A DNA stretch of 64,000 bases from Stropharia rugosoannulata (Eukaryota > Basidiomycota > Agaricomycetes > Agaricales > Strophariaceae). Positions 28,853 to 51,764 of this stretch are shown one piece after another. The notes below the pieces were generated by a model. The model had not been told where the DNA came from. It did not search any database and worked only from the letters and a program-made list of their open reading frames with translations. Location: NCBI GenBank assembly GCA_028532985.1, contig JANCIK010000001.1:2666001-2730000 (forward strand), read 5' to 3'. Made by a program: the position numbers and the translations under genes. Numbering within the stretch: the stretch's first letter is position 1; the number at the start of each line of letters is the position of its first letter.

Positions 28853-28965
28853 CTTTTTTTGAAACTTTGTGCGCGCCGTGTGATCTGTCCGTACAGTGGT
28901 ACATCTCGCCTTTAACAAAATCGCCCAGTCCAAAGTCATTCCTTTTCTTCTTACCTCTCTTCTCC

Positions 28966-31632
28966 ATGTTGTCCACACATTTTGAGTCCGTAAAAGTGCC
29001 TGAAAATACTAAGTTTAATGCAGTTTTGGGTGCTACTTTGGGAAGCGTTGCCACGTCTCTTCATGCTCCGGTTAAATTGGGCATTGCTTCGGTTCATTCG
29101 GTTGCTTCGTTATTGGGTGTTGCCTCGGCGGTTTCCAAGGGTGCTCCCTCGTCATTGCCTCGTATTATTGAAGATGAATTATTGGTGCCTCGGGTTCAAG
29201 ATGCCTTTCTGTCTCGCAGATCTACACGTCGTCACCCTATTGGACCACTCTTGGATGGCTCCACGTTACCTCCCGCACGTCTCTCCTCTCGCCGTCGCAC
29301 CTCAGCAGTCGCCTTGCCTTTGTCGGAGTCTGCATCACTGTCTTCTGTGTCTGTGTCGACTGCTCAGCCTCTGTTGTTATCGGAGCCACATGCAATGCCT
29401 GTTGCTACAGAAAACTCTTCAGACAAACACTCGGATGATAATGATTACGGTAAAATAAAGAGCACCATCATGTCCATTGACTCTTTGTCCTCCTCGTTGT
29501 CTGGTGATAGCAGTGTTCCTTTTGCTCCTCTGCATTTTATTGTTCAGCCAAACTATCTACACCACCACTTGTGGAAGGCAAATCTCCGTGCTACTCCGGA
29601 TGCTCAGCCATTTGGCGTTATTCCTATCTTGTTGGACAATGGCTCTGGTTACGTTTTAATCCGCGCTTCTCTCGCTGATAACATGAACCTGTCTCGCACA
29701 CCTTTGGCCGAACCATATCACGCTTCAGGTGCCTGGGATAGTGTGGGCGAACAGGTTTTTACAGAAACAGTAACCTTGTTCATATCCTCCTCCTGTGATT
29801 CTTTTGCCTTGAAACCCGTCACTGCCCTTGTTGCAGATAGCTTGTCCTCGCCTATGATTCTGGGCCGGCCGGTTCTTGTGCACAACAATCTGATCGATGC
29901 TGGAGAACTTAACACAGTTATTTGCGGAAACTCGGGATGGGACCTCATTAATGAGAAGACGGCTCGTATTCCACACATTTCACTAAAAAAGCGTTTTCGG
30001 GGTGTTCCTCGTCCTGTCATTGCACGCCGTCAGCAAGCCCGAGATATCATGGCTGCTCGTCGCTGCCTCATGAATGAACTCAAGTGGAGAATCAAACCTC
30101 GTCGCTTGCATATTGAAAATAGCTCGGCCTCGAAACCTGAACAAGTTGATGTTCCCATTATCGCCTCAATTGCATCTCGTATCGAACAACTTTCAAGTTT
30201 ACAGATATTACACGATAAGGAACAGGAGATCAAGGCGTACTATAAAGATATATTTGAACCAATTCCCCATGCAAATCTACTTCCTATGACGGAAACAGCA
30301 CGCATTCGCTTAAAGGATGTTAACAAGAAGATTGCCACGAGAAATTATAGCTGCCCTCGGAAATTCAATGACCTTTTTCGTGAGCTCATTCAGCAGAAAT
30401 TGGATCAAGGTTTCATTCGTCCCTCTAATAGTGAGCACATATCTCCCTCATTCCTTGTTCCCAAGCCAGGAGACAAATCAAAAATGCGTTGGGTTTGCGA
30501 TTATCGCTCCCTGAATGATAACTCGGTGCCAGATCAGTTTCCACTTCCCCGTGTTGATGACATCTTGCGCGACTGTGCCAAGGGCAAAATCTGGGGTAAG
30601 ATTGATATGACAGAAGCTTTCTTTCAGACGAAGATGGATCCGGACTCCATCAAATACACGGCAATCTCTACTCCCTTTGGTGCTTATGAATGGACTGTAA
30701 TGCCTATGGGTTTTCGTAATTCCCCTGCTATTCAACAACGGCGCCTCACCAATGCTCTGCGACACTTAATTGGCAAGATCTGCCATGTCTATTTGGATGA
30801 CATTATTATCTGGTCAAATTCTCTCGAGGAGCACATGGTAAATGTGCAGCGTGTCCTTGATGCACTTCGCCTCAATCGACTGTATTGTAACGCCTCGAAG
30901 ACTAAACTTTTCTGCTATGAAGTCGAATTTCTCGGTCACAAAATTTCTCAAGAGGGCATTGAACCTTGCCACAAGAAAGTCTCAAAGATTCTAGAATGGC
31001 CAGTTCCTCGGTCATCAAAGGAAGTTCGACAGTTCCTGGGTCTCGTTCGATATTTGAATGCCTTTCTGCCCCATCTTGCTGCACAATCTCGCGTCCTTGA
31101 TGAGCTCACGACAAAGGAATCTGAGAAGAAGTTTCCGGGGTGGTCAGAACGTTACCAGCATGCATTTGATGCTATCAAACAGATTGTTACCTCTCGTGAT
31201 TGTTTGACTACTATTGACTACGATGACTCGACCAAGAAGATATTCTTGACCACAGATGCCAGTGACACTTGCTCAGGAGCGGTTCTCTCTTTTGGTCCTT
31301 CATGGCAGACTGCTCGCCCTGTGGCTTTCGACTCCATGACATTCAAAGGTCCGGAATTGAACTATCCCACCCATGAAAAGGAGTTATTGGCCATTATTCG
31401 CGCACTACGTCGTTGGAAGGTTGACTTACTCGGAGCTGAGTTTTCTGTCTATACAGACCACAAGACCTTGCTAAACTTTCAGCATCAGTCCTCCTTGTCA
31501 CGACGCCAATCTCGCTGGATGGAGGAACTTTGCATTTTTGATTGCCGCTTTGTATACCTGAAGGGGTCTGCTAATTCGGTTGCTGATGCACTCTCACGTT
31601 ACCCACACACAGTTGAATCTCTTAAGGTTGCA
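28966..31632 (+). CDS. Gypsy pol, 5' part (protease, RT, RNase H)
   Basis: First part of a single pol ORF; the first ATG is at 28966 (MLSTHFESVKVPENTK). About 220 Ser/Ala-rich residues without a zinc knuckle come first. Then a retropepsin-like strand, VIPILLDNGSGYVLI, with MILGRPVLV downstream. Reverse transcriptase follows: RWVCDYRSLND, GKIDMTEAFFQTKMD, MPMGFRNSPA and the catalytic YLDDI (about 30789-30803), then FLGHKIS. RNase H has FLTTDASDTCSGAVL and SVYTDHKTLLNF. Its coding sense ends at SLKVA, codon Ala 31630-31632, where the KDZ transposon begins; the frame runs on by chance to a stop at 31696-31698 inside the inverted repeat. The protease motif reads DNG rather than DT/SG. Confidence 0.9.
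31626..31632. repeat. 7-bp target site duplication, left copy
   Basis: GGTTGCA, repeated at 49894-49900. Pol reads ...AAG GTT GCA here and GTT GCA GAG... on the other side, so one copy suffices for the intact gene. Confidence 0.9.
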
Positions 31633-31914
31633 CACATAGAACAGTCCCCTGGTACCGTACCCTATAATGTATTCGGGGACTATATATATACTATATGACA
31701 TAACATCATTCCTGCCAATTCTTTATTTAGATCTCTGCCATGTGTCACAGACGGATCCGGCGACTAAACGTCTACCGTAGGCTATAGCGTCATTCCGGCA
31801 GAATGCGGGTTCCCAGCCACCGTTCCAGCTCGGCATCGGGCCGACACACCACCCCTCGGAGGGTCGGTCGGTGCCCCGAGGTGTTGGTCGGTGGCAAGCT
31901 ACCCAGACTCGGCT
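31633..31914. repeat. Left terminal inverted repeat of KDZ-TET element
   Basis: About 282 bp, the reverse complement of 49612-49893 with four mismatches over the outer 270 bp and a few more at the inner edge. It contains an AT run (TATATATATACTATAT) and a cluster of TCGG/CCGA words at about 31832-31895. Confidence 0.95.
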
Positions 31915-32295
31915 TGGTAATTAGCATCCTCAAAGCATTCTGATTGTTATATAAGTAGGGGTTTTTAGTGCTCTTATATATATGATAGAGTACCAGCTCC
32001 AACATCCTACACCTGTCCTCAGCGCCGGCCACCGGATCCAGACGGACACCGATATTGACCTTTTAGATATAAGCATTTTATGTTTGTTATTGTCTTTGCT
32101 CATTGAATGCATGTTGCTGTGATTGTAAGGTCGGCTAAATACTGGTGTTAATCGGACCTCTCCGACAACGAATCGGTATCCGATCAGCTCCATTTCGGCC
32201 CATCGGCACGTGACATACATGTGGAAGTAACATTTTCTTACTACCCTACTACTTAGTATACTACTACGACCGTCCATTGCACTACGTCAGGTACC
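31915..32295. promoter_or_regulatory. Subterminal region and TET gene promoter
   Basis: 380 bp between the left inverted repeat and the TET/JBP start codon. It contains a dense run of short inverted words: AATCGGACCTCTCCGA followed by AATCGGTATCCGAT (about 32150-32174), and TTTCGGCCCATCGG. These could be transposase-binding or promoter sites. No coding sequence is evident. Confidence 0.5.
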
Positions 32296-33582
32296 ATGTC
32301 GCATTTACTAGCACTAGACTTGACGGAAACTGTTGCAAAATATATGAAGGCACGTTTCCACACAATTGTCACGGGCGAAGTGGTCAATATCCATTGGCCA
32401 TACAATGCTTGTCTTCAATGTGATTGCGACGATATGGTTGATGAGGTCGTAACGGCATTTCGTAACCGCAGTAAGATAAGGACTGCTATTTGGTGGATGA
32501 CTTGCTTACCATTTCTAATAGAAGAGACATCCTGGAATGTTGAAGATTATGTTTCTTGTTTAACTCAAAAACAGAACGGTCAAAATCAAGAACTGGAGAC
32601 AGCTATGTCCAAAAAATTTGGAGGATTACAAAGTAGCGAAGCCCTTATCACTGAGGCATGTCTGATCACAGACTTATCTGGCAATATGCTGTTGTGGTAT
32701 CTCCCAAATACTCTAACAAAATCAAGAGAGGTTGAGTGTTCCAAATTGTCCTTATAACAATAACTAAAAATAGTGGCAGAGTATGATATGGGAAGGTGTA
32801 GCATCCATGGGGTCATTCATAAAAGTTGCAAACAAATCTAACAATTCAAGTGGGCCAACATACTACGCCACAGGATCAGCATCGGAGTCCGGTCGGGAAT
32901 TGAGCTCGGCGTCCGGTCGGGAATTGGCATCGCATGTCATTCCAGAGATCGCGTCAGGAACTGTAACAATTGCACCTTCCTCATATGAGGTTGGTCATGA
33001 GGTGGGTTCTTTGACACGAGCACAGTGTGTGTGTATAATAACAAGAGTAACTAGAAGACCAACAATCTGGAAATGTCGTCTTTGTTAAATGTAAAGAACA
33101 GGAATTGGCTTGAGAGCCAGAAGGAGCTTTCGGCCTTGATTGGAGGCTTACTTTCCATTATTCATCCAGAGCAGTACGAGCAAGGAATTGCTTGCTTGAA
33201 GTACATCCAGGCTCATCCCGATATGCTTGCCAACTCAGCAGAATTGACCGAGGTGATGAATTTTTGGAGTGCCCCTTTTATGGCAATCACCATTATCAGC
33301 AACCGGAGCACCCCGTTTCACCGAGACACGGGAGCCGATACGAGTGCCTTTGATGTCTTGATCAACATTGGTACCACTCCCAATGTGTACTTTGAATTAC
33401 CAGGCTTGGGCATTAGACTGGCATACAGAGGTGGAACAGTTATCGGAATGTCATCAAGGGTACTTGTCCATGGGGTGGCTAACAACATTGACAGAATTTG
33501 TATTATCTATCATTCTAAGCACACCATTACTGAAGCATTGCATGGACAAGTACTCCCATGGATGAATATTTCACAATTTTAG
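32296..33582 (+). CDS. TET/JBP family 2-oxoglutarate/Fe(II) DNA dioxygenase
   Basis: A fungal TET/JBP-like dioxygenase, a family that oxidises 5-methylcytosine in DNA. Three exons (32296-32730, 32774-33001, 33055-33582) give 396 aa with no internal stop. The N-terminal region has LITEACLITDLSGNMLLWYL, typical of the family. The catalytic double-stranded beta helix begins near FWSAPFMAITIISNRSTPFH: the metal motif is H310-R-D312, then FDVLINIG, FELPGLGIRLAYRGGTVIGM, the distal metal His in VLVHGV (H360), and the 2-oxoglutarate Arg in IDRICIIYH (R368). All active-site residues are present. A short duplication in exon 2 gives SGREL twice. It lies just inside the left end of the KDZ element and reads inward. 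The family is confident; activity on 5mC is inference. Confidence 0.9.
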
Positions 33583-33651
33583 TTAACTTTGCTCCTGTAT
33601 TGTTTTCGGGTTTATGAATTATTTGTGCAAAAAAATTCTATACTATTACAT

Positions 33652-35834
33652 TCAATCAATGTCAATGGTACCCTGCTCAAAACTAAAGTCATCTTCATCA
33701 TTTTCATCATCATCATCATCATCAGCGCTATCCTCAGAGGCAGCGGAGTCGTCATCGGAGTCCGAGTTTTCACTCGGAAGAGAGGAGAGAGCCGATGAAG
33801 GCCGGACGGAATCAACAATATTCGTGTCCGTCTCGCCATCGGCGTCATCGTCAGCATCGGCGTCATCGTAAGTAGACGAGGTAAAGCCTGGTGGGATATC
33901 TTCTTCGTAAGCCGCAACACTAGGTAAATTGACGAGACTGTGCTCAGGAGAAGGTTCGGCGCCACGCCGATCAAGACTTGCAGGCGACCCAAGATAACCG
34001 GTCTTTATGATTCCATCGTCACCACGGCCAGAACTCTCGGAGGCTTCATCTGATTGTTCGATGTTTGGAGGGGTATCTTCTTCCACTTCCACGTCAGCAG
34101 TGAAAGCGGGAATAGTTAGTGGCCGACCGGCCTCCGACTCGAAGACTACTATGTTTGTCGGCATGGCAGGTGGCGGATCCTCACCATAGAAGTCGTCTTC
34201 TTCCTGCGTACCGTCGGCTTCACTCTGCTTCCCCTTCATGTCAGTATCGGAGACCTCCGACTCCGCCGAGTTATTTCCGTTATCCTCAATAGATTCACTT
34301 GTCGGGGGGAGCTCCTCGTCAATGGATTCGTCCGCGCTGTCAGTGATTTCCGAAAGGACTTCAATTGTCGGAGGGATGTCCTCGTCGAAATGTTTGATTG
34401 GCATTTGAGGCCCGTCGGCGTCGGAAACGGAGTGCGGCACAAGAACGGGCACAAGAACGGGTGCCGGCAAGCGAGTGTGCCCGCCGGGATGAACTGGATA
34501 TTTAGAGTTTGGTGAGAGAATTCGAACGGACTTCGATTTCCCTGTTTGTCGCGGAGCCCGAGTCGGCACCGACTCGGATTGATCTGTTCAAAATTATCAT
34601 TGTTTGTGGTTATTTATTTTTGAGGGTACTTACTGAGCATTTCTGGCCGGAATTGACGCTTGAATTCTTCTGGTGGATTTGCACCGTACTTGTGAGGGAT
34701 GACGCCGGTATCCGACACATGCTTTGCGATTGCTTCATATTGATTAATGACATAATTTGACCGCTGCATTGCCATGCCCACACTGCGCGTGGTAGATGCA
34801 AATTGGGTCCCAAGATTCTGCAATTCTTTAATTGCGGTGTCTGCCAAATCTTTCCATTGGGAGCACTTTTCGCAGACAACCCTTATGGCTTCAGGATTAG
34901 GAAGGTTGGTCGATGCCTGTGTTTGTGATGAGATATTCTTCACGCCCGACGTGCGTGATAAAGCCGCCGGTGACCATAATCGGGCGCCGGTAGATCGTTC
35001 CGATGCTTTGGTCGGCGGTCCTGATCGACCCATTGGAGGTGGTTCTCTGTTATGGGATGGAGACGGTTCCCGTCAGTGGAATGGCCTTGGTGCTTGAGTC
35101 ACCGGCAACACAATTTTGGTTCTGTCGTACGCGGCTTGCCACTTTGGCAAGGCTAAGCAGTCATCTGGAATCGGTCGGGGGTTCAACAGCCACCGATCCT
35201 GATCCGTGTCGCGTTTCTCTGCCCTCTGCTGGTCCTGATCGTTGGTGCTTTCTTCTTCATCGTCCGCTTTCCTCCAGCCCCTGAATATGGTGCTCCCCAA
35301 GACGGCTTCCTCATACGCGGCCATGTGCTCGATGATGTTGACATAGGCTGGAATTGAATCAATGACATTTTGCCCCGATTGATTCCACCAATAATGGTAG
35401 TCTGCGGTCATGGTCAAGATAGCCGCGTCATCATCTTCACTGTATTCTCGGTCCACCAATCCTGGTATGTTTGAGGAATCTGTTTCGTCCGATGGTTCGT
35501 ACATAGCGCGGACCATGAAGTCGAAAAAGTATGGAATTTCAATGACAAATCCCTGTATATGGCAAAATCCAATGTACGAAAGGGCAGCTTCCTAGCTCGC
35601 GCTGTATTAGTATGTCTATTTGAATAATAGGATTGTACTCACTACTTCCGCGGAGACATTGTACCAGTAAGGAAGGCCATCCCAAATATCTTTGAACACA
35701 GCCCTCGCGGCCATGCGCACCCGAGCCATGAGGAGGTGTACCTTGATGTTGGCGCGTTCCTGGCAATCACGGAAGTTAGATGCGTGAATGGGAAAGGGCA
35801 TTTTGCCAACTAGATCAGGGGTGTCGGGATCCAT
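33652..35834 (-). CDS. Transposon-encoded acidic-tailed protein of unknown function
   Basis: Unassigned. Exons join in frame from ATG 35832-35834: MDPDTPDLVGKMPFPIHASN, then MARVRMAARAVFKDIWDGLP, then EAALSYIGFCHIQGFVIEIP (after the intron near 35640-35590), then FMVRAMYEPSDETDSSNIPG and ADYHYWWNQSGQNVIDSIPA. A middle exon (VVCEKCSQWKDLADTAIKEL and following) is helical with one CxxC. The last exon (33652-34570) is a very acidic disordered tail with repeated DIPP/DTPP words and a poly-Asp run from (TCA)n repeats at about 33697-33722. Proteins like this seem usual beside KDZ/TET genes in Agaricomycetes, but I know no function. A role in transposition or chromatin binding is a guess. Confidence 0.65.
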
Positions 35835-36182
35835 TCTATAACGCAAGGGTAAGGATAACAAAAGCGACTTTTACTGTTCCGTTGATGGTTGGATATAATC
35901 ACATGACATTTGTCGGTGTGATCCGTTGATTACACAATCATATCACGTGTGCAGCATAGATCTTTACAGAAATACTTATTGTCTATCTGTAAGTAAATGA
36001 GATGTGTTGAAATAAAAGGCTCTTCAGTTACATTGCCCTACTAATTCCACATTTACAGTTCCTTCTCTACATACACATGGAATGAACAAACAATATTGAG
36101 AGAAGATCGGCTTGTTACCAAGTGTCGGATGTATCGGTCGCCGTGTCGGTCATGTGTGCTGTACAGCAGTGCAATTCTCTAA
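35835..36182. other. Spacer with degenerate copy of the transposase gene end
   Basis: About 350 bp upstream of the acidic-tailed gene and downstream of the transposase stop. Bases 36001-36063 resemble 36231-36291 inside the transposase last exon (shared words GATGTGTTGAAATAAAA, GCTCTTCAGTTACA, ATTCCACATT). TCGG words occur at about 36125-36150. Confidence 0.55.
36001..36063. repeat. Partial direct duplication of transposase 3' end
   Basis: About 60 bp, direct orientation, roughly 75-80% like 36231-36291 by eye. It repeats the piece of the coding sequence around MWNELGRVTEELFIS, now outside any ORF, so it is a decayed segmental duplication. Confidence 0.6.
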
Positions 36183-39100
36183 TTAAACATATATCAGCCC
36201 AACATCTTCCCAAGCACGACTATGGTTAGGATGTGTTGAAATAAAAAGCTCTTCAGTTACACGGCCCAATTCATTCCACATTGAAAGTTGCTTTTGTGCA
36301 TAAGCCTTGAATCCGCGAAGAATACGATTTTGCATGTCAATGGTGTTATGTGCTTCGCTTGCGATATCGGACGGGGGCCGACCGGCGTCCGCACGGGCAG
36401 GGATATTGTCTCGATGTGACCTCCAAGACTTGGCCCTGAATACAAAAAATCTGACGGTCCAGTTCATTTCGTGTTTGGTTAATTCAAGTTCTTCCGACCA
36501 ACGAAGATGCTGAGCACGAGCCCTAAGCCAATTTACACGGAGAACTATAGATCTTGTTAAGTAACGAATCAAATATACAAATACATACGTACAATCCTCC
36601 AAACGCTGAGAGGTCTACTGCGTGGCTAGACTCGAAATCGCGAAACACAACACACACACACACCCAGCGGAGCGAGATCCTATCCCTTAGATCGAGCGAA
36701 CGCCCTCAACTAAACGGCTAGTATAATCTATGCTCTGCTCTGGTTCCCGTTCTGGGCGTGCGATGCGCGCACCTCGTGTCCTCTAGTCTTTGTAATAGCA
36801 AGTAGTGCCTGCAAGTTCGTTTGTAAGGAGGGGTTTAATTCTAGTAAATCTCGGATAGAGCCCGGTTGCTAGTGGCGTGCGCTAGGCAAAATGATAAATG
36901 AAATAAGTTGTTTTTAGCGAACGGCTTCGCTGCGCGCACTTCCGGGTCCGGTGACCTCGTGCGATGCGCGGACTCTCCAAAGTCCAACAATCCAAGACTC
37001 TCCAAAGTCTTTCACCCGGTGGTGCAGTCTCGCAGTCTAAACACTACAGTGCGAGTTTCCGTACACGGTTGTACTGACTCCTCACTGAGCTCTCCAAATG
37101 ACCCGGTGGCCAGAAGCTATCCAAAACTCCTATGATTCACGAATACTTCACAGTTTAAAACCCTAACAAAAGCTAAACACAGCCCGCTGACGGCCTGGGA
37201 CAGAACCCAGCACACAGATCTAGTGGGTAGACAATTGCTTAAATTACTATAGACAAGAATACAGGTTTATATGCGATGCGCGCATGTGTACTATTAATAG
37301 GGTAAAGTAAATACTAGCAACGCGCGGCCAAAGGTCCGCGCATCGCATCTGGGCTTCCCTTTAGTGTCCTGGTCCCTTGGCACTCGCTGCGCGCATGTCG
37401 GTCGTTCCCTCGGGCTTTTGCGCGTCTTTTGATGCGCGCCGCCACGGTCACATGATGTGTGGACTTAGGCAAATTCTGCCTTTGCGATGCGCGCACATGA
37501 GATGCGCGCACAGCCCTTCACACCGCCTTTGGTACTCGCTCAGCTGTACTCACACCGCACTTAGCCGGTGCTTAACCGTTCTACGCACACCTGATCGCTC
37601 GCACGGATGGCCAAACTATGCACTTTTTAGACTGTGCAGCTCGCTGACCAATCCCTCTCGCGATACGGAGCGCGCAGGCGCTTATAGTCATGAGGCTCGC
37701 GCGCTGATAGCTATAGACTACGAGGCAGGCTCAACTCTAGTCTCTCTGTGTTTCCCGCGCGCAGCTATCCCACTAACGGGCCTTCTGACTGTTTACACCC
37801 GTAGCCAAAAAGCAGCCCTGTCAACGCTCACTGGTTTCAAGTGCTTCCGTTCTCTGTCCGACGGGAACCGACTCGGTCTCCGGGGCATCAGACCTGTTGC
37901 TTGTATCAGGGTCAGTTTCAACATTGAGAGTGCTCCATATCCATGACAATCGTAATTGACTTCCTCCCCGAACATTTGGATTGAAAACTGCTTCACTTGC
38001 TTGAGTATCCTCACGAGTAAGTTTCGGAAATCTTTTTTGTACTTCTTCCTCTGATGATAGAGAGACCATTACGGCTCTGTTGGCCTGGAAAGCTTGTCTG
38101 TTTAGAGATATTGATGCTGATAACATTCCAACACGTGTTGTGGCCCTTGTTAAGTGTGACCCGGTGGACCCCCGAACATTGTTTTTGTACACCCAGGACA
38201 ATTGAACAATCGCCGATCGAATAGATTCCAGGATATCTTCGGTGTGACCTTTCCGAATCGCAAGTTCATGTTCTTGTAATCTACTCACAGTCTGCTTGTC
38301 ATCGCGGTGAAGATGTCGAATCATACTTTCCGTGAAAGCTGATGGGAAAGGTAGTCTCTGCTGCTCGGGATCGGCCCGACTTACTTCATAATGCTCTGTG
38401 CTGTCGGCGTCATCATATTCAATTTCGATCAAGGAATTGTCGGCGTCCGCCCGATCGGTGAAAATTGCAACGGCTTCTTGCCCAATGTACTCGCAAGCCT
38501 GCTTTGAGAATTTATCCACTCGGGTCCGAAGATTTCTGCGCCGACGAACCAGATCCTGTCGTTGAGTTACAGTTGGATGTTTGGATAATTTTCGAACATG
38601 CGATCTTATTTCAGCTCTGTAGTGAATAATTAGTATATTAAGAATCATTGTTTCTTGTTACTAACTGTGTTTGCTCAATCTTGAGGCCCTGAGATATCCA
38701 CGTTGCCTGTCCAGTTGATCCATCTTCCTTCATTTCCTGTTCGGACAACATTAATTCAACCTCCTGTCTGGATGCTGCTTTCTTGATCTTCGGAGCATAA
38801 ATATCCATTCCATCGGGTTTCTCTTCCCTTGTTCTTTCAGCAGCCAATACTTCTGTCTCCCATCTGTCTTTCAGCTGTGGCCCAATCTTGTTGGTGAACT
38901 GCCTGAAATGTTCGGAGGCCTCCGAAGCCTCTTTGACTGCCCTTGTGTATTTCTTCACAATTGTTGTTCCTATGTTTTCATTAGATCATTTCCATTACAT
39001 ATTGATAGTAATCTACATCACCTATATGAATCATTTTTTTCCAATTTGAGTCTCCCATATGGTCATCCAAAATTTCAGTTCGATGTGCCGTTGTCACCCC

Positions 39101-41355
39101 CCGAGCTCCTCTTGAAACTTTATTCAAGAGACTCCAAAGAGTCTCCAATATCTCTCCATCAACAATGCCCGCACCGGGAATATATGTGGATGCCCATCGG
39201 TACAAACATTCATCCTTGTGTCCATGGACATGCCATAACCCAATAGCCCGGATTAGTCTTAAGCGGCGTGGAAGCGAAATACCTTTCATTTTAGCAAATC
39301 GCGCACGTTGGTGAATTCCATATATGCACATGATGTCGTAAATCATCATTGCCTGCTTTATCCCATCCATGTTTGTATTCTTCACTGCTTCTGAGAAGCT
39401 ATAATCCATGCAGATTTGCCGTTCCCCTAGTTGAAAATCCACAACACTGCTTGGGCAGAAACAACCATGTCTTGCACAAGCCTGGGCGCCGATCCCCCTT
39501 GCCCTTCTGCCAGCAACAACCTTTTCGCTGTCTAGTTGCGCACGGTGAGAATGGCAATCAATTTTCTTTAATAATAATTAATATATTTAAAATGTATTCC
39601 GAAGGCACTAAGTACATACCTGCTTAAACAGCTTGGAATATTTGGGTGCATCAGCCAGATGCTCCTTGTATGGCTGTGCTGCTGTCATGAACGCATCTCC
39701 ATGGGTGAGGTGAACGTCGTCCGCTTCATTCCGCTGATTAAGATGATCCGCCTTGAAATTGCCATCCGCACAAAATTTCCGAATGTAAAGGTATTGGTGA
39801 GGATTGTTTTCCCAATTCTCAGGTAAATTGATTCCTGGTTGAGGACAGGTTGGACAAAAAAGAGCCAGATGTTTGTTGATCGGCGCCGTGCCGGTCTCCG
39901 AAGCAGAATCATCGGAGTCGATTGCCATGAGTATTGCATCATTGTTGGCGTCTTTTCGAGGCTCCGAGTTAGGAGCTCGAGCGGTTTCCGCGTCGGGACC
40001 CGTGTCGGGAAATAGCCCGGTGCCCAATTCTGTGGGTGCGTCCTTATCGGCCTCCGCCCGGGTGGCCTCCGATAGTGCGTCCATAAACTCATATAGCTGT
40101 CTATCATATGCCCGCCCGTGTATTTTCCATAACTTCATGTTTCTATAGCATCGGCTGAGGCGCCGAAGTTCTCGGTATCGATCTACCACTGCTGCAGGAT
40201 AAGATGGGCAGGTAAGGCGTCGAAGTTTGGCGTAATATTGGTACGCTGAAGTCTTGCATTCCAGGTTTGAGACACGAAAGTCCTTGAGGACTGTAAAGGT
40301 GAATACGGTCTCAATTTTATCGTAGCTTGTCGGTAACATTGACAATTCAATCCAGGGTAAATCAGGTTCTTGTAGTGAGCCAGGGCATAAACACCGAACG
40401 AAAGGTAAGTGATGAACACCTGTCACGTCAACGATAGTAATGAACTTGTTGTCTTGATTATCATATGGTCTAGGTCTGGGAAGTATGTTTGGGTAGCCAA
40501 GTCGCATGTCAAATTCTTCCTCCAAGATTTCGTCTTCCCAATCTTCGGGCTCCGGGACGGTGCCGACCCGAGCCTCGCGCTCAAGGTCAGCTTCATGGAA
40601 TTCTTCTGTTGCGATGTCAGCTGTAGGTAGCTCCCAGTTTGGATCTCGAAGGAAAGATTAACATTTGATATTAAAGACAGATTAAACTTCTACCTGCATC
40701 TTCAACATAAGGCCTAGATGGACATCTTTGCCCTTGGTGGCCTAGGTGTAGTTTTATTCCCAGTTGCCACAGAGCGCCAGTCTTAAAGCAACTCCCTTGC
40801 CATCTCTCGATTCGGTGTAGAATTTGGAATTGATGTTCGCGACGGCAGCACACAGTACACAGAAATCGGCCGCCGAAGCAATCCCGGCACCGCCATTTCC
40901 CTTGATTTAAGTTACAAGCTTGACATTTTAGATTTTCGGGAGCAGGTGCTTCGTTTGCAATCCAGATTTGCAAGTGCCGCTTCCGTCGGTGCACCCATTC
41001 ACGAAGAAATGTATTCTGAGACTAGGAAATGTAAGCTGACATCTTTATTTGACTATTCTTGACTTACCTTTCCCCTATGCACAAATGCAGGCAGAGCTTC
41101 AAGATTTCTTATTGTGTCTTCCTGAGTAACATCTCCTGGGTACTGCGCCATGGTGAATATCTCCTCTACACTCTGCTGTGTGCAAGGTACTGATGCCTTT
41201 GTTGCTGCAGGAACAGTGTACACTCCGGCCATTTTTCTTGGACGTCGAGCGTGTGCCCTACGTTGTTTCACTGGTCTGCCTTTATCGTTTAATTGGATAG
41301 GCTCGTCATCTTCGCTCCCGACGGACATCATATGTATGTGGCTGCGAGAACTCAT
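36183..41355 (-). pseudogene. KDZ transposase with CxC2 cysteine cluster, interrupted
   Basis: Kyakuja-Dileera-Zisupton transposase. ATG at 41353-41355 starts MSSRSHIHMMSVGSEDDE. Order: a basic N-terminus; LREWVHRRKRHLQIW; the CxC2-type zinc cluster CQACNLNQGKWRCRDCFGG then LCTVCCRREHQF; ITIVDVTGVHHLPFVRC; ECKTSAYQYYAKLRRLT; CPTCPQPGINLP; catalytic ADGNFKADH (Asp 39764-39766); ARHGCFCPSSVVDFQLGERQ; MIYDIMCIYG (Asp 39335-39337); GLWHVHGHKDECL; IVDGEILETLWSLLN (Glu); and ILDDHMGDSNWKKM. The C-terminal helical part runs to ETSER at 37829, where a 1,215-bp insertion (36608-37822) breaks the gene. Removing it joins SER to LEDFLRVNWLRARAQHL and the frame continues to GLIYV (stop 36183-36185). The DDE-type residues are intact, but the full-length protein cannot be made unless the insert is spliced or lost. 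Confidence 0.9.
36608..37822. mobile_element. 1,215-bp non-coding inverted-repeat element (hAT-like MITE?)
   Basis: Inserted in the transposase gene, flanked by AACGCT on both sides (36602-36607 and 37823-37828). The flanks extended to 8 bp match at 6 of 8. Ends are imperfectly inverted: GAGAGGTCTACTGCGTGGCT on the left and, complemented, GACAGGGCTGCTTTTTGGCT on the right. Composition differs sharply from its surroundings, being GC-rich and carrying about eight copies of the word GATGCGCGCA or variants. No coding potential beyond chance ORFs. The CAGGG-like end and 6-8-bp duplication suggest a non-autonomous hAT element; this is inference. Confidence 0.75.
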
Positions 41356-42067
41356 TATCAGAGGACAGAGATCAGCAAAGGAGAAGTGAAGTTCTATGAT
41401 ACCTTTCGTATTCCTTTTATATGTTCGGTACAAACAATTGACTTGGACCCGTTACCCAATGAAGTAACAAGTTAGAATTAAATATGTTCAATGAATTTAG
41501 AATACTATGACAACATTGTATTTGTTATCTTATTGTTTTTTTTTACTCTTGTTCTTGTTTATTGTTCAGAACTTCAGTGCACAGCATATTACAGGTCAGT
41601 AAAGAACAACAACCTGTCTAAGCGGGTTGGCCATGGATGCAAATACAACAGTATAATATAATATCTTTTGTATAATGTACATGGGCACACTTCGTATGCA
41701 ACGGGTATTGCCTAGTTGCATTATCTGCATCGAACACGACCAATATTTATTTACAGCAGTAGAAACGGTGTAAGTTGATCAAAGTCTAAGAAGGATGAGG
41801 AGAATAACATCATCCCACTCTGCATCGGGTGTTCACTGCAATTACACTCTCTATCATAGAATCTGTATGTATTCTTCAATAAATCTCGTGAATATCTACC
41901 TCATTACCTGATATCAGCTGTATAGATCGGCATCGGTCGGCGACATGTCGGAATCACCGATCAGATTGTATACTTTAATTTATCGATGGCGTGCAAATTG
42001 CGACAGCGTGCGCCTTGCCAAAAGGGGTCAAATTCTAATTACTAACGACATTCCCCGTTCATTATCC
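41356..42067. promoter_or_regulatory. Divergent region, KDZ transposase / WF-motif gene
   Basis: About 710 bp between the transposase start and the preferred start of the next plus-strand gene. AT-rich, with a T-run near 41540, then a TCGG/CCGA cluster at about 41926-41960 (GATCGGCATCGGTCGGCGAC ... ACCGATCAG). An in-frame ATG at 41945 could lengthen the downstream gene by 41 residues. Confidence 0.45.
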
Positions 42068-44464
42068 ATGCCTCCGTCTACCGAAGAGACAGTGATTGCA
42101 GTGGCGAAGGATGCATCAGTTCCAGAGCCATGGACAGCCAAAGAAGAAGAGATCTTGAAAACCCATCTGGATGCATATAAGGCCCAGAAGAGAGGGCAAA
42201 AAAACACATGGTTACGAGATGTTGTTTTACCGCTGATAAGGGAATGCTATAAGGAAAGGTATAGCCGGAATGCTATAGAGAAGGATCCAGAGGCAAAGAA
42301 GCAATGGAAGAAGAGGAAATTGGTGAGCAAAACACTGATTGACCCACCGGTCGGTGTCCGAATCGGCTCAAAAACGCTAATGGCATAATTATTTAGCGGG
42401 TCTACAACTGGTTTCGCAATCATGGAAGAAAAGAACGTACCCCCCATATTCCAGGGCTCAACTACAAAATGACTTTTGATACCGTTGTCACTGCCAAAAA
42501 AAAAAAAGGAAATTGAGGTTTTGGCACGGAGTCGGGCCGGCGCCGACATCGATGCCAGCAGTCGGGAATGGATAGGTCACTACCAAGGAGCAAAAAAAAT
42601 AATCAAGGAAGAACTGACAGATGAAGAACGGGAAGAGTACTTGAAGGAGTTGGAGCAATGGCAACTAAACGGTGTGCCAAAGGACATACAGATTGAGTGA
42701 GCGCCAAGATCTTCGTTACTTCGATCTTTAATCACGTCAACATTAGGAACGCCATGAAATATTCCACTAAAGTGGCCAAAGCGGCGGATAAGATCAAATG
42801 GGAAAGTATGGGCATCCGAACAACATCATTCTCCTGCTTCCAAGGCGAAGACGGGAAAGGGGTGTACGCCGTGTGAGCATATCAATTGTGTTTAACCAGT
42901 AGTGCGTTCCTAAAAACTGAACAAATATAGCTTTGACACGCAGAATATGCAGGGCAGCTCCCCTACATATGTTCCTAGCTTCCAGAGATGGGCTCCAAAG
43001 GAATTCAATTTGTTCCTAAAGAAATACATCGAGTATACCAAATTTGCTATCAAGCTTAGCGCCGTCGGTCCGAACGGGGATGCTAATTCCACTGGTAGTC
43101 CAGTATTGGTCAACAAGGGTGGTTTGCCACGTGTACCGCCCGCAATCACGAGCAGCACAGGTGTCGAATACCTTGAAACGCAGGAAAGGGCAATACGCCA
43201 ATACATTGGTCAACACTACAAGTTGGCGTATGGCAGAAAAGCTGCCACACCTTACAAATTTATGACTGACGGGGATTACCATTGGAGCATTTTTGTTGAC
43301 GAAATCTACATGCCCGATGGAATTGAATTCAGCGATCCTCACAGTTACAAAGTTCATCAGACCAGCCAGATTTTGAGATTATGGAGATATAGGGAAAGCC
43401 AGGGTGAACTGCCATTCCGGTTTTCAAATGTGAAGCAGGATGACATACCAGGATCTGCCCAATACCCTGACGGAATGTTGACGGAGTTTAAAGCCCCCAG
43501 CTCACGGTCAGTCCCTACAGAAGAAGAGACAACTGCTGATCAAAGGGCGGAAGTGGTAGATGTCGGCGCCGATGCGGGCTCCGACATGGCAAACCTCGGC
43601 GCCGGGGCGGGCTCCGAAGACGCACACGCTGGTGCAGAGACAGCCTCCGACAGTCATTCAAGTACGGAATGTGCAGACTCGAATGAAATTTCAGGTTCAC
43701 GGAAGGAGCAGAACCAGGGAACCAGCCAAGCTCCCAAGGTTTGTTAAATCATTTCTGTCGTTGGTGAATATAAAGTGACTATAAATCAGCAACACGAGGT
43801 TTCAGTGGAATTTGCCTCGGGAAAAGGGCAGGAAAAGCAGGGCGGCGCCGACCGGGAGCCGACGACTAGGTTACCTACGCCAGCAGAGTCCACTGACAAG
43901 TTTTTACATGACACCGATACAGATAACTCGGTCGCCGATCGTTCCCGTGTTCAAAAGGAAAGACCTCGGCCAAGACCGAGAGGTTTGGCTTCAACACAAA
44001 GGTTGTCGATGAACATTCCAGCACTTACCCCAGATGTGTCAGTGGCATCCAGTCAGACACCTGATGGTGTTGTACACTCTGAGGATGATAGCAGCGACCC
44101 AAAGCAGGTGAAGATCAGACAGGGTAAATCCACCATCAGGAAAATAAGGATCGAATCTCCTGAAAGTGAAGTGGCTTCGGATGGACCCGATCGGCCCCCG
44201 AGCACGCCAGTCCGAAATCCGATGCCTGAAACTCCCGCACTCCGGCCACGCAAGAAAAACTTTAAGCAACAACAGGATCCCAGGATTGAAAATGAAACAC
44301 ATTCCCGGCAGCCGACCGAGAATCTATATACTCGTCAAATGCCTGGAAGATCTCGTAAACGTACAGAAAAAGGTGCTGCATATGATCAGATGATTGGGTC
44401 TAGTCCCACAGTTGTTGGTTCTTCACCATCCATGACCATTTATAAGAAGAGAGGGGACAATTGA
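42068..44464 (+). CDS. Transposon-encoded protein with WFRNHGR motif, frame shifted
   Basis: Unassigned. From ATG 42068: MPPSTEETVIAVAKDASVPE, then WTAKEEEILKTHLDAYKAQK and, across an intron (42323-42396), KLRVYNWFRNHGRKERTP, a helical basic segment that looks DNA-binding. The frame then meets a run of 12 A (42496-42507): read straight it ends after a few codons, whereas the next conserved-looking stretch (EIEVLARSRAGADIDASSRE) is in another frame and would be continuous if the run were 11 A. Later exons give NAMKYSTKVAKAADKIKWES, VPSFQRWAPKEFNLFLKKYI, a low-complexity Asp/Ala/Gly part with repeated GADAGSD/GAGAGSE words, and a Ser/Pro/Arg-rich basic tail to 44464. It may be a pseudogene, a slippage-expressed gene or a homopolymer error. 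Confidence 0.6.
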
Positions 44465-44601
44465 ATACTCAGATACTTGGATGTATATCGGAATAGCAAT
44501 CAATTTATAATGATGACAAGATATGACATTACAAAAAACAATAAACAGGTAGGGGTTAAGTACATCCACAAAAAGTATATACACAATACAAGTGCTTCAA
44601 C

Positions 44602-47600
44602 TCATGTCTTCTTTTTCTTCCCGTGTCCAGTTGTCATCACGCGGCGGGGCGGCTTGTCATTCATTTTCCTCTTCTTGCTGACTCTCCCGGCTATGGTATC
44701 CGTGTCGTCTTGAAGCTCTGGAGGTATTGGGGGATGTGTTTCCACCCACAGTTCTGCACCTGCCGCGCGTTTACGCAACCGAGACGGACCGGGAACCAAG
44801 TCGGGCGCCGTGGAATCGTCGTCCTCGATGTTAGTGAGTGGAGAGAGGCGGTCTGGATCCATCATCGCGTTGATGCCCTGAGACATTAGCCGCTGCTCTG
44901 TTGCGGCGTCGTGTGATTTTTCCAGAAGCTGGTCGATTGCGTTGACCAGGGCTGGGTTGGCTCCCATCTGAACAGCTATGTCGCCTGAGAATAAAAGAAA
45001 TTATTACAAAAATACCAGAACGGAAGAAGTACTTACTTGACTCCTCCAGTGGACAGTCTTGACGTCCATCCGCGACACCAAGGGAATCCTTCTGAGTTGG
45101 GATGGACATCGCTGTGGGAATGGACGCAGAAACAGTAGGATCTTCGACTTCATTAGATGCCTTGGCAGCTTCCTCTGATCCGCGTTGAGCGATGCCCGTG
45201 GGGTCTTGCAGCGGATCCGCAGTTGCAACGGCGGTTGTCGCCTCAGCAATCATCTCGGAGTCCGGCTGGATCTCCTGCTGATGCTCAGAGTCCTCTGGCA
45301 GCGGATCCAGAGTCGGAACGGCTGATTTCGCGCCGGCCACGTCCTCGGAGTCCGGGTTGTTCCCCTGCTGGTTCTCAACGGAGGGAGAATAGGAGTCCCG
45401 CGGGCCTGCGTCATCCACAGAGGTCTCCGCAAATGGTTCAGCATTTGCAGTAGGTTGCGATTCTTGGCCCGGTTGCTGATCTTCATTTGACACTGATTGC
45501 TCGGGCTCCGTGTCCTGTACGTCGGTCGGTTCCGTTTGTTGTCCGGGAAATTCATCGCCGGTCATCGACTGCTCAGGCCCCTGCGCAGTATCTTCTGGAC
45601 CCAATGACTGGGCTGTGACCAACTGCTCGTCGACAGACATCGGCGATGTCGACCGTCGGTGCGCCTCCAGACCCTCGTTGATGGCATGTTCGGCCTCCGC
45701 AGGCTCATGCGCAGTAGCTTCCGATGGTGGCCGGGCCGGAATCACCACTTCCGCAAGCTCTTGTGCATCATAGTCGGCGGCCGGCCGGGGGTGCTGCGCA
45801 GAAGGCATGTGCCCCTGTTCGCCTTGTACGATGGCCTCGGTGCCCGACGAACTATCCGATAACACATACCGTCGCTTGCGGGAGGAAACGGGTCGGTAGC
45901 TGACTTCTGTCGAGGTGTTCAGAAGGCCATCATCTTGGACTTGTTCTGACCGTGGTATTGATCCTCGATCGAGTGCAATTGCCATCCGCGAGACTTGTTC
46001 CCCGACTCGATGTAACCTTTTCCCCTGTGCCACCTGTTCGGACATCACCTGCTGCACGTTGTCCATCACAACTCGCACATCTTGCAATGTCTTCACTAGA
46101 AGCTCGCCCAGGTTCGTTGGAATGAAGTCATCGGCGACGCCCCGACCGGTCTCCACGGCCTGAAGAGGCTGTGCAAATTGACCCAAGGGCGTCTCATAAT
46201 GCAGAGTCGACTGCAATCGGTATCGGTCGCATGCCGACCGGGAACGCCGCCTTGCCATATTCTTGACTTCTTTTTCGCCCCACCCGTCGTCTTCGTCAGA
46301 GCTGGTTGCCTTGTCGTCGGAGTCGGAGCTTCGACTGTCGTAGCCATCATCAGTCACATACCTCCTCCTGTTGTCCTCGCCGCGGCTAAGTTCACATTTT
46401 ACCTTCATCGTCTTGCATCGGAGACATGCAATCCGCTTCTCATCGGGATCCCTTTCCCATTTCAAGCGGTCCCGCAACGTGTACTTGTCGCGATATTGGC
46501 AGGCATGGCCGCCCAAGAGACACCGCTTGCAAGGACGAGGGGACTCGACGACCGCTGACGCCTTCCTCTTTTTGGCCTCCTCCAAAGGTTTGAACGTCGG
46601 ATCCAAACGGCTGGGCTCGCCGGCATCTTCACTTAGTTCCATGTATTTCTTGCGCATGGATCTCCGTGTCGGGCCCCGAGTCGGTGGCCGAGGAGCAATG
46701 TCATCCTTTCTTGGACGCTTCTTTGTCGGAAGAACTACCTCTGGCCGTGTGGACTTGTTAGGTGGACGGCGTGCCCGATTTGAAGTACCGGTCCTATTCT
46801 CGTTGGTATTCGCGTTTTCATCGTCCCCGTTGCTCTGGTCAAGCTGGTCTACCTCCATATCCTGGTTCGCCGTTGTGTCCATGGCCTCCAAACCCGTGGA
46901 ACCTGGTGTTTCCATCTGGCGATCCAGACGCGAAGGACCTGCTTTGGCCATTTCATGCTGCATCGGGGTCTCTCCGACGTCCTTCGGCATCGTTCCGACC
47001 TTTGAGGGGGCTAGGGCAGTTTCCAAGGGCCCTATGAGCTGCCTTTGCTGATCGGCGACCGAGTTCGCAACGCCGTCAACTTTCGGAACCACACCAACTA
47101 GCTTCGGCGGTCTCGGTGGTGATATTCGGACTGGGCTCGGAGCATGTCCGAGGTCTTTCAAAGACCCAATCTCTCCTGTTTCTACCGTCTCGACTCTTGA
47201 TCCCTGGGCTAGCGGCTCTTCGTCCGAGGACACATATACTTTTGACGTGATTTTTTTGCGCGTCTGTATATATATTAGTTACCATTATTTTGTAAATATC
47301 TGCCTTCTTACCCTACGAGGCTGCTTCTTTGCCGTATCGGTGGGCAATGTGGCCCAGGTGACAGAGTCTAAAGAGCGCGTAATAATGTCAGCATGGAACC
47401 ATCAGCATGTCTTGTTGGGCTCACCTTCGTCCCTCTCTTTTCCTTTGCCTTTCTCTTCCTTCTTTGTCCTTCCCCTCCCTTTATCCGCACTCTGTTCCAT
47501 CTCCTTCGCGTCGGTTCCATCCTTTGCCTTGTTTTCCTTAGTTTTTGACTTCATTTTGAACCAGCTAGGGATTGCATGGCCTATATCAAATGTCATTAAT

Positions 47601-48028
47601 GTACAAAGTAATGTAGAACATTGAAATAACGTACCACCAAATAACACATTTTTCGGTATCCCACCCGCACTCTTCTCTATACCAACTAGTGCGGTCATCC
47701 CTCCGGTCATCCGGCTATGCAGACCATCAAAAGTGAAAACTTGCTTCGATTTTTCGAGATCGACACCGTAGTGGTAGACATAGTCTACTAGCGTCCATGG
47801 CGTAGTTTCACGGTTTAACTGGTGCCGACGCAGCTGAAGCGGGATCATAAGAATGTATTGTCAGAGAAAATCAGTTGGTGATGTGAAAAAACTACTCACC
47901 TCTTTAGCGCGCGCCCACAAACTGGGCCACCGCTCTGGAAACCCCGTCTCATCCTTGCGCGCCCAAATGTCAACCAACTGCTTATGCAACTCGGCGCGTG
48001 AGGAGAGGAAGGCGCTTTGGGACGACAT
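44602..48028 (-). CDS. Transposon-encoded protein with split Zn-cluster-like cysteines
   Basis: ATG at 48026-48028 gives MSSQSAFLSSRAELHKQLVD. Splicing adds TTPWTLVDYVYHYGVDLEKS, RMTGGMTALVGIEKSAGGIP, KNVLFGGHAIPSWFKMKSKT, a Lys/Glu-rich stretch, and DSVTWATLPTDTAKK, with all joins in frame. The large exon (about 45040-47250) is disordered and basic/acidic, but contains two cysteine triplets, CKRCLLGGHAC and CLRCKTMKVKC, each CxxCx6C, about 28 residues apart. That is the spacing of half a Zn(II)2Cys6 site each, so one metal cluster could be built from two halves. A DVRVVMDNVQQVMSEQVAQG helix follows. The last exon (from 44991 down) starts GDIAVQMGANPALVNAIDQL and ends GHGKKKKT. It is probably DNA-binding; function is unknown. 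Confidence 0.65.
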
Positions 48029-48500
48029 GTTGAAGGAGGGATACCGGGGAGTTGCGTAGCGGGATGCGGTGGAGGTACGACGGGATGCTAGGCAGATGGC
48101 AGATACGAAGAGCAGGCGCGACGGGGTGGGAAACGAACGCGAAGAAGACGGTAAACGAGTGCGACGAGACGCGAGGGATAGCGCAATGGCGCGGCGGCTG
48201 ATGGGCGAGACGCGATGAGAGGCGCGACGTGACGCGTGGAGGAGTGCTTGGAAGAAAATGACAAGTCCAAATCGGACGCAAGCCGATGTTCTTCAACTTG
48301 GGCCAAACATGATCAAAGTCGGTCATATGACCTGTGCCGCCGGTCTTTCATTCGGCCACCGGTAACAGCCGGTGACCGTCATGGATGACCGGCGACAACC
48401 GATGACTTAATGGTGACTGCTGGATGTCTGTAAAGGACAGATCTGATAAAAGATTGCTTACCTTCTGCCAGTCCTACTGAGTATATAAGAGTTATTTACT
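48029..48500. promoter_or_regulatory. GC-rich divergent region inside the transposon
   Basis: About 470 bp between two divergent transposon genes. The first 200 bp is very rich in GCG/CGA words. From about 48337 to 48410 there is a cluster of CCGGT/ACCGG words in both orientations (GCCGCCGGTC, GGCCACCGGTAACAGCCGGT, GACCGGCGAC). No coding sequence of the transposon seems to need this region. Confidence 0.5.
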
Positions 48501-49314
48501 ATGCGCCCTCGTAAGCAAGAAATTTGTACTATGTAAAGTCATAATAAAATAAGCAATATAGCCTCCTTGAAGAGAAAGGCTGCTCACCTGGAAAGCAGTG
48601 ATGAAGATATCGAAGTCTCCAGCCCCATCCCAATCCCGAGATATTTTGATGGTGGTCCTGTGGATGCAGATAGTGATTCTTCAATGGAAGTGACCAGTCC
48701 AATACCAATACCTATCCAGAGCGACTACTCAATGGAGATATCAAGCCAGATTTCAACGTCCAGTGATAACAGCATTGAGGTTTCTAGTCCAATTACAGTG
48801 AAGACAATTATCGAAATCTCGGACTCCGACAACGAATCGGAGGCGGTCGGAGATGGGCTTAGCTATACAACTAGTGCTGATAGTGAGCATGAGTCCTCTT
48901 CAACGCTTACCCACTTAATTAGACATATGAAAGTTGGGGACATTAGAAGAAAAATCTCCGACTCGGCCACCGACCGACCTTTGTCGGACATTGTAGACAT
49001 CAATTTAGATCGTGTAATGGATATTACATGGAATGTCCCCAATAATTATGTGCGGCATCTTGACGTCCTTCTAAACTCTTTACCTAACCCTTACATAGAC
49101 TAGGTTTTCTCTCGAAGATGTATATGAAACCTCAAAACTGATTGACGATATGAAACTGGGACCAGACTTTCAAACCAAACTGTCAAGCCTAATCAATGCT
49201 CGGAAACAACAATATTATATGGAGAGGGCGTACTGGGAGCTGTGTAATGATGGTCTCCAGGGTTTAACCACCATTCAGCAAAACCTCGCACACTGGAGGG
49301 ACCGGTTGGCATAG
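48501..49314 (+). CDS. Transposon-encoded small acidic protein
   Basis: Unassigned, 225 aa. Three exons join in frame: 48501-48510 (ATGCGCCCTC), 48562-49013 and 49099-49314. The protein begins MRPPSLKRKAAHLESSDEDI, then repeats an acidic SSPIPIP / TSPIPIPIQ / SSPITVK word, then EISDSDNESEAVGDG, HLIRHMKVGDIRRKISDSAT and VDINLDR. The last exon gives FSLEDVYETSKLIDDMKLGP and a helical ending, LTTIQQNLAHWRDRLA. The donor GTAATG at 49014 and acceptor CATAG at 49098 restore a frame that otherwise ends at 49103. SDSD/E acidic clusters resemble SUMO-interacting or histone-binding motifs only loosely. Confidence 0.6.
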
Positions 49315-49611
49315 AAAAACATTCATATATAAGCATTACTGGAAGTTGAATAATATATCGGCAAGTGTGTCGGCCCCCAACTTGTGCTACATCATTTGTC
49401 TGTTAAGTCCTGCGCATTTGTAAAGGTTTGAGGCTTTATAACGGAGCCTCGGTTACCGATAATGAATGCTTATGCCCCAAGACGGTTGATTGTTAGTTTA
49501 TCGGACAGCTCCGAGGGTGTGGTACAAAAGAGACTACTGTATACGCAATGTCCTCTTTGAGATCTTGGGACACCCTTTTCGGTCCTTAGAATCATCCAAA
49601 TGCAAGAGCCA
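49315..49611. other. Subterminal region, right side of KDZ-TET element
   Basis: About 300 bp between the last transposon gene and the right inverted repeat. It has TCGG words at about 49357-49375 and no ORF with support. Confidence 0.4.
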
Positions 49612-49893
49612 CACCGCGTCTGGGTAGCTTGCCAGCGACCAACAACTCGGGGCACCGACCGACCCTCCGAGGGGTGGTGTGTCGGCCCGATGCCAAGCTG
49701 GAACGGTGGCTGGGAACCCGCATTCTGCCGGAATGACGCTATAGCCTACGGTAGACGTTTAGTCGCCGGATCCATCTGTGACACATGGCAGAGATCTAAA
49801 TAAAGAATTGGCAGGAATGATGTTATGTCATATAGTATATATATAGTCCCCGAATACATTATAGGGTACGGTACCAGGGGACTGTTCTATGTG
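49612..49893. repeat. Right terminal inverted repeat of KDZ-TET element
   Basis: Partner of the left repeat, ending CTGTTCTATGTG at 49893, followed by GGTTGCA. Confidence 0.95.
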
Positions 49894-49900
49894 GGTTGCA
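49894..49900. repeat. 7-bp target site duplication, right copy
   Basis: GGTTGCA, matching 31626-31632. Confidence 0.9.
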
Positions 49901-51553: not shown

Positions 51554-51764
51554 GTTTTCGTATGTTTTCAATTTTCTTCCTTCACGTACCTCTTACTTTC
51601 ACTTCTGCCTGCGGTAGCTTCCCCACAGGGGTTTGACGCACCCGTGCACGGATTTTTCTTTTGTCGCGTGTGACCCTTTTATCTCAGTTTAATTTTCTAT
51701 CTCTACTAACTGCTCTATCTACATACGCTCTTCCCTCGCCCTTCTTTTTCTTGGGGGGGAGCAC

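Follow-up and report, generated by a model that had tools for sequence, protein, structure and literature searches.

A TET/JBP-bearing KDZ transposon with six conserved genes in a Ty3/gypsy retrotransposon of Stropharia rugosoannulata

The window analysed here is a stretch of 64,000 nucleotides from the agaric Stropharia rugosoannulata (assembly GCA_028532985.1, contig JANCIK010000001.1, positions 2,666,001 to 2,730,000), and between its positions 31633 and 49893 lies a delimited KDZ transposon with exact ends, an observation which our analysis confirms. Judged from its sequence, the segment is a TET-bearing transposon of the KDZ superfamily and of the Kyakuja kind, already described by Kojima 2025 (PMC12730594). 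The reading that we consider very probable is that of a cut-and-paste Kyakuja transposon of about 17.04 kb, which entered a young gypsy retrotransposon and carries a module of six genes, with a TET protein that would act briefly and a later decay of the resident copies at CpG sites.

Ends, target site and empty site

The features which delimit the element and its target are the following (TSD, target-site duplication; TIR, terminal inverted repeat; LTR, long terminal repeat):

31626..31632, unstranded: left TSD, GGTTGCA, 7 bp
31633..31912, + strand: left TIR, 280 bp, starting with CACATAGAACAGTC
49614..49893, - strand: right TIR, 280 bp, 98.2% identical to the left one
49894..49900, unstranded: right TSD, GGTTGCA
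28634..51983, + strand: Ty3/gypsy retrotransposon receiving the insertion, with LTRs at 28634-28852 and 51765-51983

The inverted repeats at 31633 and 49893 align without gaps over 285 bp (98.2% identity over 280 bp) and the element termini read CACATAG..CTATGTG, so that the exact ends put forward in the initial annotation, with repeats of about 280 bp and the GGTTGCA duplication, were recovered. Removing the segment and one TSD in silico rejoins an uninterrupted reading frame 1,493 codons long, as that annotation had also claimed; the frame is, however, no host gene. Pfam matches on both halves of the rejoined frame (RVT_1, RT_RNaseH, Integrase_H2C2 and Chromo, with a protease-like part also present) identify it as the pol of a Ty3/gypsy retrotransposon, and the disruption of a host gene is thereby ruled out. 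The two LTRs of this gypsy element, 219 bp each, are identical to each other.

All copy counts reported here refer to the genome from which the window was taken (48 Mb in 20 contigs, denoted by C-numbers). In this genome the joined 400-bp flank has a single full match among six, identical over 400/400 bases, at C7:1931499-1931898. The gypsy sister at this locus differs from the window flanks by 9 mismatches and no gaps over 3,400 bp (99.74% identity), and the two flank blocks aligned to it overlap by exactly 7 bases, which is the length of the TSD. The C7 locus is thus a related empty site, found within the same genome as the insertion itself. The initial annotation had named differing end points in other copies, or the lack of any empty site or second copy, as grounds for its refutation; neither was the case.

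Among the 14 end pairs examined across families, an exact 7-bp TSD is present at nine, with sequences that differ between sites. The five end pairs without an exact TSD are those of copy D (one end of which is short by 31 bp), of the small elements L028, L029 and L031, and of C2:1029856-1078372.

Six genes and their conserved order

The element holds six conserved genes, in the order TET (+), g2 (-), KDZ transposase (-), g4 (+), g5 (+) and Zn (-), in agreement with the six genes previously counted. Together with a solo LTR that interrupts the transposase gene, they are:

32297..33582, + strand: TET/JBP dioxygenase gene, about three exons, a relative of CcTet (Pfam Tet_JBP, E 4.3e-16)
33652..35834, - strand: g2, ~665 aa, acidic C-terminal half (sub-threshold BRCT-like hit only)
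36183..36602, - strand: detached 3' tail of the transposase gene, past the solo LTR
36607..37823, unstranded: solo LTR, 1,217 bp, TG..CA, with the TSD ACGC at 36603-36606 and 37824-37827
37821..41355, - strand: KDZ transposase gene with CxC2 cluster, crudely modelled with six exons; the frame stops at the LTR junction
42068..42388, + strand: g4, small, basic and probably helical, a candidate DNA-binding protein (no Pfam match)
42754..44464, + strand: g5, without a Pfam match; has a conserved domain (42932-43447) and a C-terminal part of low complexity
44602..48028, - strand: Zn gene, ~1,000 aa, Zn2Cys6-like, a candidate DNA-binding protein (sub-threshold Zn_clus hit)

The claim of a KDZ transposon with a TET/JBP gene is borne out by Pfam matches to KDZ, CxC2 and Tet_JBP: the KDZ domain (PF18758) scores above the cut-off with E 7.7e-36, and the CxC2 cluster (PF18803, E 9.5e-17) precedes the catalytic domain. 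The TET protein matches the structures of CcTet (PDB 8jkk/7vpn, E 6e-18) and keeps the iron ligands, i.e. the HxD motif (HRD) and the distal His, as well as the equivalent of Asp337. Calling the window element copy A, its sister copies B, C, D, E and G, and a fragment F, an Ala occupies the position of CcTet Gly331 in all copies from A to E, as it does in three sequences further removed, L038, L032 and L033 (the roles of Gly331 and Asp337 are taken from Kojima 2025, PMC12730594). The catalytic exon of TET is uninterrupted and stop-free in copies A to E, and the open frame of G at this place is as long as that of A. The Zn protein has a split six-cysteine motif (CX2CX6C-X24-CX2CX6C, near 46394-46531), and all six cysteines are kept with the split spacing in a distant element on C10. 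As for g4, we take it to be a candidate for the divergent HMG protein reported for KDZ elements. A seventh gene at 48.5-49.7 kb was considered and not counted, its frame being interrupted in copy B and its model ragged.

Between subfamilies (A versus B, C and E), the ratio of nonsynonymous to synonymous divergence (pN/pS) is 0.24-0.25 for KDZ, 0.34-0.38 for g2, 0.32-0.36 for g5 (first two exons), 0.37-0.44 for TET (significant) and 0.48-0.52 for Zn (main exon), ratios which indicate that these five genes are under purifying selection. Versus copy D, the values are 0.26 for KDZ, 0.29 for g2, 0.31 for Zn, and 0.44 and 0.62 for TET and g5 (neither significant). The open reading frame (ORF) holding g4 has a pN/pS of 0.59 and one stop in copy B.

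TET, g2, g4, g5 and Zn were located genome-wide and then set against 86 KDZ loci. Exons of one gene were merged by hand (KDZ from 123 hits to 86 loci, g2 from 42 to 16, g5 from 48 to 34, Zn from 39 to 13), while the 32 loci of TET (31 over the cut-off) and the 36 of g4 were left unmerged. The loci that lie within 13 kb of a KDZ gene, with side and strand as expected, are 26/32 for TET, 15/16 for g2, 32/36 for g4, 31/34 for g5 and 9/13 for Zn. With a limit of 12 kb, 27 of the 32 TET loci lie beside a KDZ gene and 26 of them are convergent with it, the chance expectation being ~4%. Both g4 and g5 have the expected side and strand at 30 KDZ loci, of which 22 have TET too, and all five partners (TET>, <g2, <KDZ, g4>, g5>, <Zn, with Zn allowed up to 45 kb) occur at 10. 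The 30 loci are not 30 independent cases, because some are near-identical copies; the order is nevertheless kept beyond these. In related families with the same ends, identity to the window proteins is ~43-72% for g2, g4 and g5 and 33-48% for Zn, and in more distant families it falls to 21-43% with the gene order still kept (the two most distant g2 matches being weak, E ~5e-4). At three KDZ loci the other partners are present with no TET hit. Near the KDZ families that are most distant, no Zn gene was recovered.

Because g4 and g5 stand in the same arrangement with KDZ at 30 loci, and the full set at 10, these data suggest that the six genes form a co-inherited module rather than loose cargo, and the term "cargo", used in the initial annotation, undersells them. 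Chance passengers, as in cargo-carrying giant elements, would accord with the faster divergence of g5 and Zn than of the transposase (pS 0.18 versus ~0.05-0.09) and with the lack of Zn near the most distant families; given the constancy of g2, g4 and g5 by KDZ down to ~21-43% identity, and a gene order that outlasts near-identity, we hold this explanation to be highly improbable. We found no description of the six-gene order in the literature searched, with searches that were not aimed at gene order alone and with Kojima 2025 represented by its main text, and the order is not claimed here as new.

Sister copies, CpG decay and the solo LTR

A search of the genome for the inverted repeats of the window element gave 44 candidates, 40 of which were scored matches, and the terminal 14-mer has 42 exact occurrences in 48 Mb, as compared with 0 for the reversed control. 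Sister copies aligning to A lie on C13 (B), C9 (C), C7 (D and E) and C12 (G), and the other copies in the genome have the same end points; G ends ~2 kb before the right end, and only one end each was recovered for F and G. Mutual identity is 97.8-98.4% among A, D and G and ~99% among B, C and E, falling to 93.1-93.7% between the subfamily of A and D and that of B, C and E. More distant families also share the termini, and related elements measure 17.9 kb between ends on C12 and 20.8 kb on C10. A delimited copy with complete cargo and a dated insertion had been called rare material; delimited TET-bearing KDZ copies are, however, not rare: Kojima 2025 (PMC12730594) delimits families, and there are several in this genome.

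For every copy, the changes derived on its terminal branch were polarised by comparison with the five remaining ones. Of these changes, CpG>TpG accounts for 15/58 in A (26%), against 84/120 in D, 112/135 in G, 31/40 in B, 46/64 in C and 38/47 in E, i.e. 70-83% in the five non-A copies (p from 6e-7 to 4e-14 for A versus each other copy). The lower share in A has the same direction in each of three element segments, and with fewer outgroups the counts are 26/88 in A, 116/163 in D, 34/43 in B, 58/76 in C and 46/57 in E (with one more gapped-context site in A and B each). Over shared columns A also has the highest CpG count (795 versus 663-765). The window copy is therefore the least decayed copy and, given the share of 26% against 70-83%, probably also the youngest. 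Its insertion, previously described as dated, can be placed relative to the gypsy element and by the state of CpG decay, and not in years.

The rate of CpG change per site is 0.185 in the context CCG, 0.132 in TCG, 0.117 in ACG and 0.098 in GCG, with no strong TCG context. The gypsy target shows the same type of change, since 8/9 differences between the C7 sister and the window gypsy are CpG transitions, and the ratio of observed to expected CpG is 0.94 in the element, 0.91 in the gypsy body and 0.88-0.93 in the window flanks, with no strong depletion. Since the decayed copies keep a readable TET catalytic exon, there is no lasting protection of resident copies to be seen, which suggests that the onboard TET gene does not prevent long-term CpG decay. 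We do not present CpG hypermutation as new for Agaricomycetes, since the parts of the literature consulted already report CpG-biased mutation in Heterobasidion parviporum (PMC5870257) and Tricholoma matsutake (PMC6980582).

The initial annotation gave the window copy a size of 18.3 kb and a complete cargo. Its ends were right; the segment includes, however, the 1,217-bp solo LTR which truncates the transposase, so the copy is incomplete. The last transposase exon has 264 codons in the window copy as compared with 403 in copy D, and in B, C and E it has early stops or a frame change as well. The solo LTR is missing in all five sister copies, and subtracting it and its 4-bp duplication from the 18,261 bp leaves an element proper of ~17.04 kb. 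With its transposase truncated, the window copy would probably need a transposase from elsewhere for any further movement. The solo LTR belongs to an abundant LTR element (341 first-look candidates, 40 of them scored, with paired copies ~14.7 kb apart), and its CpG count is 93, against 43-75 in seven other LTRs. The LTR element that was its source measures ~15.9 kb with 1.2-kb LTRs, an example being C6:712105-728019. Copies B and E sit in copies of this inner LTR of A; because that LTR is very abundant, no targeting of LTRs is claimed.

Some further observations concern the size and state of the relatives. Exact ends with 7-bp TSDs were obtained for C13:1554586-1606741 (52.2 kb) and C2:1111785-1153944 (42.2 kb), whose ends fall in L044, L045, L048 and L049. 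We do not take 42-52 kb as the true size of giant Kyakuja elements; nesting is likelier, because copy C is nested and the sister element on C12 has only 17.9 kb. Copy C (46.7 kb) is enlarged by nested PlavakaB-like insertions, namely L012-L015 (C9:2651500-2678207, 26.7 kb) and L011 (C9:2639369-2642250, 2.9 kb), both with CATCA..TGATG ends; the larger one contains two 427-bp repeats, 100% identical and ~5 kb apart, and perhaps holds a nested LTR element. L028 (C14:203652-205701), which measures 2.05 kb and has the termini of the window element, is flanked on the outside by inverted copies of one sequence in place of a direct duplication, as if it lay inside a hairpin. L032 (C13:1480362) and L033 (C12:2088650-2090468) are what is left of another family with TET, its ends ~80% alike; the TET catalytic exon is readable in the former and interrupted in the latter. 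Outside the insertion and its gypsy target, the window has host-type genes by Pfam, at 27384-28013 (ribosomal protein S12/S23), 17799-19292 (DEAD-box helicase), 57073-57798 (topoisomerase I fragment) and 3556-4251 (amidohydrolase).

Mechanism, alternatives and known systems

In the mechanism that we propose, the KDZ transposase with its CxC2 cluster would cut at the CACATAGAACAG ends with a 7-bp stagger; ends, TSD and empty site are observed, and the chemistry is that expected by analogy with KDZ transposases. The TET protein, as a CcTet-like dioxygenase with conserved iron ligands, is expected to oxidise 5-methylcytosine, and it most likely acts for a short time around a move, in cis or in trans, so that expression or excision is made easier before the element moves and directly afterwards. 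The g4 and Zn proteins are likely DNA-binding accessory factors, and g2 and g5 would be conserved accessory proteins. Resident copies would later be methylated, and then decay at CpG sites despite TET, the decay itself being observed. In its most specific form, which we advance tentatively and with considerable doubt, TET in this module would be active around transposition only, so that copies decay once they have landed and the lineage in motion is kept clean. Defective copies such as that of the window may then have been moved in trans by the transposase and TET of relatives.

A number of points weigh against this reading. The gene models are crude and made from sequence alone, and on alignment there are frame shifts in the Zn gene of B, in g5 of E and in KDZ of C. 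Profile searches gave no significant domain-family match for g2, g4 or g5, and single-sequence folds of g4 and g5 had predicted local distance difference test (pLDDT) scores of 55 and 33, too low for use. The copies have probably recombined with one another, because divergence between subfamilies is patchy (2-16% per 750 bp, rising from ~2-6% to 7-16% at window 33883-34632 and 43633-47382) and shared derived sites conflict (24 for D and G, 22 for A and G, 11 for A and D). Non-CpG derived changes number 43 in A, 36 in D and 23 in G; because they are not fewer in A, its lineage is not itself young, and youth is confined to its state of decay. As the cause of the decay, CpG methylation suggests itself, and we infer it from the pattern of the changes. 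The assignment to Kyakuja is based on domains, the 7-bp TSD and the CA..TG termini; the two Laccaria Kyakuja families of Kojima are described as lacking TIRs, as compared with 280-bp TIRs here, an absence which is the state of those two families and not a defining feature of Kyakuja.

One may ask whether the segment is a transposition unit at all, since inverted repeats alone could arise by an inversion or a segmental duplication bounded by repeats. This explanation is refuted by TSDs of differing sequence at 9/14 end pairs and by the clean related empty site, with the transposase gene inside and the copies on several contigs also speaking against it, and we give it practically no credence. 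It is usually proposed that TET protects its element from methylation as long as a working enzyme is encoded, and Kojima 2025 (PMC12730594) argues that TET aids escape from silencing. The little-decayed window copy, with its high CpG count, would fit such protection, as would a TET frame that is stop-free in D, B, C and E and has a pN/pS below 1 (significant versus B, C and E). However, the five other copies reach 70-83% CpG>TpG with the TET exon open (their TET proteins may be inactive or silent), and the TET-less gypsy shows the same type of change, so that no protection of resident copies is visible and we regard this proposal as unlikely.

It is also conceivable that the jump took place in trans, with the transposase of the window copy already broken by the solo LTR and the enzyme supplied by another copy. 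The 43 private non-CpG changes in the lineage of A leave time for an earlier LTR hit, and the gypsy target is young, its LTRs being identical and its sister differing at 9 sites over 3.4 kb. On the other hand, the solo LTR is shared by none of the five sister copies, and its richness in CpG means that it may have landed after the jump; we see movement in trans as a real possibility, though not the likelier course of events. How a transposon profits from carrying a TET enzyme is a question which this family can address, since it has a little-decayed copy beside five decayed copies that keep TET, and since the genome also holds related elements without a TET hit, among them a pair on C9 and C13. 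With such material it can be tested directly whether TET shields resident copies, promotes excision, or has neither effect. Four accessory genes (g2, g4, g5 and Zn), with testable roles in KDZ transposition, are pointed out, additionally, by the conserved gene order.

Among known systems, Starship giant elements are defined by a tyrosine-recombinase captain gene, and no such gene was found here, in that 18 ORFs scanned, a part of those in the element, gave no recombinase-family match at E up to 0.1. The 8-bp TSD of Zisupton/Dileera is not seen either, the length being 7 bp at all nine end pairs with a TSD. In earlier work by Iyer and colleagues (PNAS, 2014), KDZ transposases were reportedly linked to TET/JBP genes and to extra genes including a divergent HMG protein, the elements being reportedly described by gene neighbourhood, and exact ends are not known to have been given.

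KDZ1 of Cryptococcus neoformans (~11 kb; PMC12810828) resembles the window element in its KDZ transposase, its long TIRs (241 bp) and its zinc-cluster domain, and differs in having an 8-bp TSD and CxC1 instead of a 7-bp TSD and CxC2; the word dioxygenase is absent from the main text of that paper. In the mushroom Marasmius oreades, about half of the DNA elements belong to KDZ and Plavaka, with TIR motifs characterised (PMC8290104), and in Pleurotus CxC2 regions precede intact KDZ transposons (PMC7641404). The closest likeness is to the TET-bearing Kyakuja of Kojima 2025 (PMC12730594), where families are delimited with 7-bp TSDs and CA..TG ends and occur in five orders of Agaricomycotina: the window element has in common with them the 7-bp TSD, the CA..TG ends, the KDZ transposase and a CcTet-like TET/JBP gene, probably of the AG type. 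CcTet of Coprinopsis cinerea (PDB 8jkk, 7vpn) shares with the window TET the HxD motif, the distal His and Asp337, and differs from it at Gly331, where AG-type TETs have Gly or Ser and the predicted window protein has Ala.

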